A model generated the notes under the pieces. The model was not told the DNA's origin and searched no databases. It saw only the letters and a list, made by a program, of their open reading frames with translations. A stretch of 50,739 nt of DNA, from positions 1 through 50,739 of the forward strand of contig CASEFP010000176.1 in the NCBI GenBank assembly GCA_949287225.1, written 5' to 3'. This document shows, one piece after another, positions 20,749 through 24,833 of this stretch. The DNA is from an uncultured Lentisphaeria bacterium. GTDB lineage: Bacteria > Verrucomicrobiota > Lentisphaeria > Victivallales > UBA1829. Every line of letters starts with the position of its first letter. Within the stretch, counting starts at the first letter, position 1. The translations under genes and the position numbers were made by a program.

Positions 20749-21386
20749 AAACAGGGCTTCCACTCTGGATATCGCTGATTTTCTTCGTCATGGTATGTTC
20801 CGTTGCAGCGCAGGATGTTGTGAGTCTGCCGAAGAATACGTCTTATGCGGATGACGAAACGGGTGGTGTTTTTCCCCCCCGGATCGGCAATTTTACAAAA
20901 ACCAGCGTCACAAAAAATCTGAATCCTTATTATGGAACGAGGGTTCGTTATGCAAATGACTATGGGGCATCCGCCGATGTTTATATTTATTCATTGGATT
21001 TGAAAACCGTGAAACTGTCTCAGGAACAGTGGCAAAGGCATTACGACGAAGTCAAAAACAATATCTCCCATCTCACCGGAAAGAGTGCGCCGCTTGGAGA
21101 AGTTTCCAAGCTTGAGGAGTTTACGCTCACCGTTCCTCTGGAAACCGTGAAAAAACTGGCTCTGGACTCTACTGTTGTCGGGAAGCGCTGCACCTTTGCC
21201 TTTTCCATTGGCGAGGATCCGTTTTTTTCCGAACTGGTGATCTTTTCTGTCGGTTCGAAGATCGTGAAATTGCGTGTGACTTTTTCGCGGGAGATTACTG
21301 CGGAAATGGAAAACGCTTTGCTTTTCCTGAATACTGTCTGCCGGGATTTTTTTGCAAACGCGCAGTTTATTCCAATACCAAAGTGA
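20745..21386 (+). CDS. Hypothetical secreted protein
   Basis: A 213-residue protein with a clear signal peptide (LWISLIFFVMVCSVAAQ, cleavage near residue 23). The mature part mixes beta-strands and polar loops (YYGTRVRYANDYGASADVYI; RCTFAFSIGEDPFFSELVIF) and has no cysteine pairs, repeats or motifs I recognise. Codon use is a little more AT-rich than argH. It overlaps argH by four bases, so it is co-translated with it, though no functional link to arginine synthesis is apparent. The hairpin cluster starts at its stop codon. Confidence 0.75.
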   Translation: MKTGLPLWISLIFFVMVCSVAAQDVVSLPKNTSYADDETGGVFPPRIGNFTKTSVTKNLNPYYGTRVRYANDYGASADVYIYSLDLKTVKLSQEQWQRHYDEVKNNISHLTGKSAPLGEVSKLEEFTLTVPLETVKKLALDSTVVGKRCTFAFSIGEDPFFSELVIFSVGSKIVKLRVTFSREITAEMENALLFLNTVCRDFFANAQFIPIPK

Positions 21387-21490
21387 CGGAAGAATGCGGG
21401 AGCATTCTTCTCGGGGTCAAGGGTCTTTGACCCTTGTCGTGATCCAGCGGCGAAACGCTGGTCGCGCACAGCGCGAATTCCCCGCCCGGA
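21386..21490 (+). repeat. Four-hairpin element, copy 1
   Basis: Hairpins A-B-C-D (arms GAAGAATGC, CAAGGGTC, CCAGCG, TCGCGC) followed by TTCCCCGCCCGGA. The first 79 bases (21386-21464) are identical to 21508-21586 in copy 2. It starts at the last base of the preceding gene's stop codon. Confidence 0.85.
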
Positions 21491-21507
21491 TAGGTGACTG
21501 ACCGGAA

Positions 21508-21612
21508 ACGGAAGAATGCGGGAGCATTCTTCTCGGGGTCAAGGGTCTTTGACCCTTGTCGTGATCCAGCGGCGAAACGCTGGTCGTGCGGAGCACGAAA
21601 TCCCCGCCCGGA
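21508..21612 (+). repeat. Four-hairpin element, copy 2
   Basis: Direct repeat of copy 1 with a period of 122 bp. Hairpin D differs: TCGTGC GGA GCACGA (21584-21598) replaces TCGCGC ACA GCGCGA. The base change in one arm is matched in the other, and the tail ATCCCCGCCCGGA is kept. Confidence 0.85.
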
Positions 21613-24009: not shown

Positions 24010-24438
24010 TCAAAGTTTTACCGCTTCGGGATTCTGCGCCGCATGCGGATGCTCCGCACCGGCATAAACTTTCAGCTTGGCATACTGCGCCCGGCCGAGA
24101 CGGCCCTTGGGAAGCATGCCCCAGACGGCTTCGCGAATCATCAGTTCGGGTTTCTTCGCCCGGATCTCGCTGGCTTTTTTGAGCTTGTGCCCGCTGCGGT
24201 ATCCCGAGAAGGACTCATACATTTTCTTTTCATCCTTGGCGCCGGTCAGGAGGACTTTCTCCGCGTTGATCACGATCACGAAACAGCCGGTGTCAACATG
24301 CGGCGTATAGGTGGGACGGTCTTTGCCGCGAAGGGAATTCGCGATTTTCACTGCAAGACGGCCCAGGGGAACATCCGCCGCGTCGAAAAGGACGAACTTG
24401 CGCTCGATTTCGCCGGCTTTTGCCAGATACGTCTTCAT
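24010..24438 (-). CDS. rplM: 50S ribosomal protein L13
   Basis: A 142-residue L13, exactly the family length: KFVLFDAADVPLGRLAVKIA, LRGKDRPTYTPHVDTGCFVI and AVWGMLPKGRLGRAQYAKLK are all present. The start at 24438 has GGAGAAG upstream; an upstream in-frame ATG at 24528 would add 30 non-homologous residues. About 220 bp lie between it and the upstream terminator at 24660. That stretch has no gene and holds AT-rich promoter-like sequence near 24575-24600 and a leader of perhaps 130 nt, as expected for a ribosomal protein operon. Confidence 0.97.
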   Translation of the reverse strand: MKTYLAKAGEIERKFVLFDAADVPLGRLAVKIANSLRGKDRPTYTPHVDTGCFVIVINAEKVLLTGAKDEKKMYESFSGYRSGHKLKKASEIRAKKPELMIREAVWGMLPKGRLGRAQYAKLKVYAGAEHPHAAQNPEAVKL

Positions 24439-24659
24439 TTTTTCTTCTCCGCTTTCCAAAATTGCTTGAATTGAAGCTCTGTCTCTAAAAAAACACCTGC
24501 AACTCCGGAATTCATGCTGCCAGGCCATGAACGCCGGAACACCGGGCCGCGATCGGGAAATGCAGCCACGGAAATATATAATGTAACATCCGATTTGATT
24601 TTTTCAAGACACAGGAAAAGGAAAAGAGGATTTTTTCATCTGGAATTGTGCAGTTCAAT

Positions 24660-24690
24660 AAAAAAAGGTGAAGGCCTCTCGACCTCCACC
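24660..24690 (-). terminator. Terminator of the candidate small RNA
   Basis: On the minus strand GGTGGAGG (24683-24690) pairs with CCTTCACC (24667-24674), one mismatch, 8-nt loop, then seven T. Confidence 0.75.
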
Positions 24691-24798
24691 CCCACTTTTT
24701 TGATCTCCTTTTAGAGTCAGGAGAAGACTGTTCCGCCGACAGGCTCTCTCTAAAACCCGGCAACGGCCGCCGACCGGACCTCTCACAATCCAGTCTGC
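24660..24798 (-). ncRNA. Candidate small non-coding RNA, unnamed
   Basis: A segment of about 139 nt with its own promoter (24806-24833) and terminator (24660-24690) and no supported reading frame. The minus-strand transcript would contain a GC-rich hairpin CGGC/GCCG (about 24757-24771). TTTTAGAG and CTCTAAAA then form an 8-bp stem enclosing GAG/CTC and a CTGT/ACAG stem-loop. A purine-rich single-stranded stretch (AAAAAAGTGGGGG) and the terminator hairpin follow. It does not match 6S, SRP, RNase P or tmRNA by eye. It could be a regulatory RNA; sequence alone does not give a target. Confidence 0.5.
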
Positions 24799-24805
24799 AG
24801 TCAAC

Positions 24806-24833
24806 AATCTACATGTAAAAGCCCAAATGTCAA
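24806..24833 (-). promoter_or_regulatory. Promoter of the candidate small RNA
   Basis: Perfect TTGACA (24828-24833), a 16-bp spacer and TAGATT (24806-24811) on the minus strand. The predicted start is near 24798. It is downstream of tRNA-Gln and would not serve the tRNA. Confidence 0.6.

Follow-up and report, generated by a model that had tools for sequence, protein, structure and literature searches.

What does the interval between tRNA-Gln and rplM encode in the window (the whole stretch of 50,739 nucleotides analyzed here, from an uncultured Lentisphaeria bacterium): a small RNA with a gene of its own or part of a neighbor's transcript, and, if the former, how might such an RNA act? Read along the minus strand, tRNA-Gln (25089-25016) comes first, then the small-RNA element (24833-24660), rplM (24438-24010), rpsI (23996-23592) and a gene that we take, from its Pfam domains, to be argC (23470-22442). 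At 21386-21612 a 122-bp unit is duplicated almost perfectly (1.9 copies, 95% matches). The element was found in six genomes, comprising the whole of the window's genus (four genomes: G000, the window's own, and G001-G003) and two of the three in a second genus of the same family (G005 and G020).

The locus and its conserved parts

24828-24833, minus: -35 hexamer TTGACA of the putative small-RNA promoter; TTGACA in 4/4 genomes of the genus, TTGACT in the second genus's two
24806-24811, minus: -10 hexamer TAGATT after a 16-nt spacer; position conserved in relatives
24660-24799, minus: predicted small RNA, about 140 nt long, its 5' end placed by the promoter and its 3' end by the T-run
24767-24800, minus: hairpin 1, sequence variable, structure conserved
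24733-24766, minus: hairpin 2 with a GAGAG-type loop, from fold prediction and alignment
24704-24724, minus: hairpin 3, a UCUCCU...AGGAGA stem with one compensatory change (U-A to G-C)
24687-24707, minus: invariant 21-nt core GAGATCAAAAAAGTGGGGGTG, identical in 6/6 homologs, with an unpaired AUCAAAAAAGU stretch inside
24660-24693, minus: intrinsic terminator hairpin and T7 tail; 13/13 pairs kept in 6/6 homologs, one compensatory change (G-C to A-U)
24578-24607, minus: rplM's own promoter-like site, which follows the small-RNA terminator and is conserved in the genus
24010-24438, minus: rplM (ribosomal protein L13; Pfam PF00572), the only conserved neighbor

A sequence-only reading of this DNA had reported a perfect TTGACA, a fair -10, about 140 nt and a terminator hairpin with seven T. 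All of these were located, and promoter, hairpins and terminator are kept in all six homologs. The promoter (TTGACA-16-TAGATT) agrees with the consensus at 10 of 12 positions and would place the start of the RNA at about 24799-24798; the terminator comprises a hairpin at 24693-24664 (13 pairs, 4-nt loop) and T7 at 24666-24660. Within 1.6 kb there are four promoter-like sites against 0.9 expected and five terminator-like sites against 2.4 expected, and such pattern matches, modestly above shuffles, are by themselves weak support for a gene. What sets the element above chance is its fold energy together with its conservation in five other genomes. The 142-nt fold has an energy of -63.3 kcal/mol (z -4.4), which none of 200 shuffles equaled. 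With the terminator left out, z is -3.6 in G000, -4.1 in both G002 and G003 and -4.5 in G020, and the folds of G001 (-1.6) and G005 (-1.95) are unexceptional.

The predicted transcripts measure 141 nt (G000), 139 nt (G001 and G003), 138 nt (G002), 142 nt (G020) and 170 nt (G005), and five of the six homologs fold as hairpins 1, 2 and 3 followed by the terminator. In G001 hairpin 3 appears once the terminator part is omitted from folding; in G005 the 5' part carries additional stem sequence and its fold there differs from the others. An 8-bp TTTTAGAG/CTCTAAAA stem (24755-24748 with 24716-24709), which the sequence-only reading had named, exists as sequence and is not the favored fold: forcing it costs 12.2 kcal/mol in the window, where its pairs have a mean probability below 1e-6; in the three congeners that mean is at most about 2e-4.

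The expectation that relatives would conserve the structure through compensatory changes was borne out, with some in each of the four hairpins. In an alignment of five sequences (A5), from which G005 was left out because its 5' part is unalignable, 93.2% of cells pair; both sides have changed in 5 of 39 pairs, as many as are reached in 15 of 500 shuffles, and the covariation score is equaled in 63 of 500. For the 3' part of all six sequences 98.2% of cells pair, both sides have changed in 2 of 19 pairs (as many in 22 of 500 shuffles) and the score is equaled in 22 of 500. Each of the four hairpins, the terminator included, shows one or more double-changed pairs in one of the two alignments, and sliding the partner, as a control, lowers pairing to 45-65% in both. 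The alignments suggest, at moderate strength for six sequences, that the predicted secondary structure is conserved, and the apparent covariation is modest. Between the genera, identity is 0.77-0.88 in the 3' core, 0.48-0.58 at third codon positions of rplM and 0.44-0.61 in the 5' half of the RNA.

Known RNA classes, range and neighbors

A comparison with Rfam, which the sequence-only reading had proposed as a check, came back empty for the element and for the homologous loci. Cmscan of the element returned nothing at the gathering threshold and nothing credible at E ≤10, where the best non-tRNA match, at 15.4 bits, fell short of the gathering score of 45. The same reading had judged by eye that the element is none of 6S, SRP, RNase P or tmRNA, and the covariance models likewise gave no match to any of them. 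SRP RNA (RF00169) lies elsewhere in this genome, at G000:C177:16236-16333, and was found elsewhere in 9 of 10 genomes searched. For RNase P RNA and tmRNA there was neither a covariance-model match nor an ARAGORN call at the element. 6S RNA (RF00013) is of comparable size and also a stand-alone gene. It forms a closed rod with a central bubble and paired ends, whereas the predicted small RNA is a series of hairpins with free ends and occurs in only 6 of 36 family genomes. The Rfam 6S model matched in 0 of the 36 family genomes, a model that detects just 5 of 14 controls; the 6S RNA of this lineage is either absent or too diverged for it.

Among described elements, Acido-Lenti-1 (RF01687), which PMC2864571 lists for Lentisphaerae, is also a candidate non-cis structured RNA from the same phylum, but cmscan of our element gave no match to it. 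The general kind to which the element belongs is a familiar one. Intergenic trans-acting small RNAs, such as the families counted in PMC9029176, likewise have their own promoter, a length of about 140 nt, no reading frame, an intrinsic terminator, a narrow range and a conserved stretch among variable hairpins. The element is unlike them in that Hfq and ProQ were not found in the tested genomes, that its 3' end is the most conserved part, that it matches no Rfam family and that its phylum has very few described small RNAs. The literature on Lentisphaerae and Victivallis small RNAs, covered except for subscription journals, yielded no description of this RNA. It is a new family of intergenic small RNA, and probably a regulatory RNA.

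The window's genome and 60 relatives, 61 in all, were searched at the DNA level; the element was recovered in G001, G002 and G003, and its 3' part was also recovered in both G005 and G020. Among the 36 genomes of the family, 6 contain the 21-mer GAGATCAAAAAAGTGGGGGTG without a mismatch, one copy each; five more family matches carry three mismatches and lie in genomes with no match to R1, a model of 69 positions from hairpin 3 to the terminator. Run on 137 genomes of the order, R1 matched 11 at E ≤0.05: the six known ones at E ≤9.4e-17 and five weakly, the best of these at E 0.0016 (L058, in G085). A scan of a contig database with the 21-mer returned five contigs, which agree in length with those of the five relatives, all Lentisphaerae, Lentisphaeria or Victivallales. 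An 18-nt pattern with one mismatch, searched in 197 genomes of the class, hit 10 further genomes against 4 for a reversed control, and among the seven of these ten examined (G088, G097 and G116 were left out) a terminator follows the pattern only in L058. There, at L058:1501-1580, a terminator behind a gene carries a ATCAAAAAAATGGGGGTG stretch close to the core of the small RNA; since it lies directly behind the gene and lacks a good hairpin 3, we judged it a chance terminator.

Viral contigs gave no match to the 21-mer, and 12 matches to a looser 17-mer, all inspected, were unrelated by eye; the phages and plasmids searched held no match to the small RNA. The third genome of the second genus, G013 (assembly 78% complete), lacks the element and also any match to the rplM leader described below, so the locus may be missing from its assembly. 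Other genomes offered 13 rplM loci whose upstream DNA could be read, and the element was recognizable in none of them; R1 scored at best 16 bits on L027-L040. The putative RNA is of narrow phylogenetic range among the genomes searched: two genera of one Lentisphaerota family.

Its neighbors were expected to be conserved, and here the expectation held in part: rplM adjoins the gene in all six carriers, in either orientation, and tRNA-Gln, which adjoins it in the window, stands beside none of the other five. The far-side neighbor is an FAD protein in G001 and G003, a LacI-like regulator (by eye) in G002, a DUF4838 protein in G005 and, in G020, a gene without assignment before argH. In G000-G003 the element precedes rplM and shares its strand, at a distance of about 220 nt in the window. 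In the second genus the entire block, from promoter through hairpins to terminator, is intact and turned around relative to rplM. In G020, where the minus strand carries rplM (start at L024:2027), the RNA occupies 2260-2401 of the plus strand; in G005, where the plus strand carries rplM (start at L025:2712), the RNA occupies 2471-2302 of the minus strand. It follows from this inversion that the unit is not a leader of rplM. Taken with the element's own promoter and terminator and with rplM's separate promoter-like site and leader, the inversion argues, from sequence, that the RNA would be its own transcription unit. The stand-alone layout first read from the window alone is in agreement with this inversion and with the conserved structure. 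We consider it very probable that the element is a stand-alone gene for a small RNA, new to Rfam and equipped with a promoter and a terminator.

Candidate modes of action

Neither Hfq nor ProQ was found in any of ten genomes (the six carriers and four others; assemblies 78-98% complete), and CsrA was found in one of them, G004, which is without the RNA. Since none of the three was found in the carriers, the best mechanism would be base-pairing in trans without them. We propose that a gene with a sigma-70-type promoter, hairpins 1-3, an invariant and partly unpaired stretch and an intrinsic terminator is transcribed, and that the RNA acts as a trans-acting antisense regulator through its conserved 3' part. 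Contact could be made by the UUCUCC stretch of hairpin 3, which is complementary to Shine-Dalgarno sequences, by the unpaired AUCAAAAAAGUGGGG, or by both, and hairpins 1 and 2 may shield and present the contact stretch. In the predicted fold the anti-Shine-Dalgarno stretch is paired within hairpin 3, and in G001 it is altered (CCGCUCC). No target emerged consistently when duplexes with start regions of the six genomes were scanned; the scans used partial genomes and crude gene calls, with 54, 144, 145 and 148 start regions in G000-G003, 49 in G020 and 31 in G005. A screen for orthologous targets comprised just six groups, some from wrong-strand frames. We give this helper-free antisense mechanism about an even chance, and the whole explanation, a stand-alone RNA gene acting by that mechanism, a probability of roughly 0.5.

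A tentative alternative, which we regard as somewhat unlikely, is that the stand-alone RNA binds a protein, either as a sponge or as a modulator of polymerase or of an RNA-binding protein, with the invariant AAAAAAGUGGGGG and the GAGAG loops as its site. The invariant part would then be a fixed single-stranded stretch plus a stem, GAGAG recurs by eye in the 5' hairpins of all six homologs, and an Hfq-type chaperone was not found. Against it, CsrA was not found in the carriers, and the RNA is without the long rod of 6S RNA.

The constant presence of rplM next to the gene, though inverted in two carriers, raises another possibility, that the RNA regulates rplM in trans. Hairpin 3 would open and pair with the ribosome-binding site of rplM (UCUUCUCC with GGAGAAGA) and with a site about 40 nt upstream (CUCUAAAA with UUUUAGAG; in G020, ACUCAAAU with AUUUGAGU). 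Predicted duplexes between the core and the rplM start reach -24.7 kcal/mol in both G000 and G001, -27.3 in G020 and -21.9 in G005, each matched by at most 0.5% of 200 shuffled cores, and among start regions with GGAG, rplM ranks 1 of 24, 8 of 58, 1 of 21 and 3 of 13 in these genomes, respectively. The pairing fails in G002 (-12.9, rank 53 of 58) and G003 (-17.0, rank 42 of 67). The cognate pair of core and rplM tops its row in just three of six cases, rplM is unremarkable in all six genomes when the whole 5' part is included, and the background gene calls are crude. The GCGGAGAA ribosome-binding site also stands before rplM in L027 and L029, from relatives without the RNA. With four species for and two against, rplM as a target is suggestive, and we hold this reading to be unlikely.

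The rplM leader and the remaining alternatives

Upstream of rplM lies a second structured element (24574-24505, minus), with two hairpins and invariant CCCGA and CUGGC-G loops. A model (R2) built from ten rplM-leader loci and run on 197 genomes of the class matched 26 of 36 family genomes at E <1e-9, many of them the model's own sequences or close relatives; outside the family it found nothing better than 5.7e-6 among the 197. The homologous leaders are L076-L101. In 17 aligned matches (16 distinct), both sides have changed in 10 of 12 pairs in an alignment fitted to the structure, and in the same fitted alignment 35 double-changed cells compare with 13.7 in shuffles (0 of 500 as many); helix 2 pairs in just 45% of cells. 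The leader in the window has no Rfam match. Three structurally distinct L13 leaders are published, from E. coli, Firmicutes and Bacteroidetes, and the accessible text of PMC7247131 on them is without mention of Lentisphaerae. We regard the leader as a candidate new L13 ribosomal leader; it would be a further apparent solution for L13 autoregulation. The published leaders (of Bacteroidia in the third case) resemble the small RNA in lying upstream of rplM, according to the same part of PMC7247131, but the small RNA does not appear to act in cis on rplM, and the leader candidate is a separate element.

Could the two elements act together? An L13-binding leader of a new type and a small RNA that pairs with that leader and with the ribosome-binding site would amount to two-RNA control of rplM-rpsI without Hfq or ProQ. 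We consider this improbable; if true, a protein signal and an RNA signal would jointly set the supply of L13.

A simpler link to rplM would be that the small-RNA element is itself a leader or attenuator of rplM-rpsI, with transcription from the promoter at 24833 halted or passed at the terminator. Its position in the window and in the three congeners, upstream of rplM on the same strand, suits this. For the second genus the reading is refuted by the inverted block with its promoter and terminator intact. In addition, a promoter-like site and a conserved leader that belong to rplM itself follow the terminator, and other family members carry that leader without the small RNA. All this makes an attenuator highly unlikely.

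Equally remote in our estimation is a short coding gene or dual-function RNA, in which GGAG, 9 nt and GUG GGG GUG in the invariant core would serve as ribosome-binding site and start. GGAG-AUCAAAAAA-GUG is the same in all six homologs and the frame runs open through the terminator, but past the terminator it continues into unrelated sequence, and where codons differ, most changes are non-synonymous and the stem pairs are preserved. The original remark that the interval has no supported frame stands: no frame is open in all six homologs without stops or shifts, one-base indels occur inside the core, and upstream frames are broken by one-base indels and stops. That the element is the 3' trailer or processed end of a tRNA-Gln transcript, as the upstream, same-strand tRNA-Gln of the window might suggest, is least credible of all, given that five homologs are without an adjoining tRNA (in G001, G002 and G003 the tRNA matches of the DNA search are on contigs other than the element's) and that the element has its own conserved promoter.

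Very few small RNAs have been described from this part of the tree: a survey from 2022 (PMC9029176) has 8 annotated ones for the whole PVC group against 345 in Proteobacteria. With Hfq, ProQ and CsrA not found in the genomes that carry it, this probable small-RNA gene offers a concrete object for studying how a small RNA could work when such helpers are lacking.
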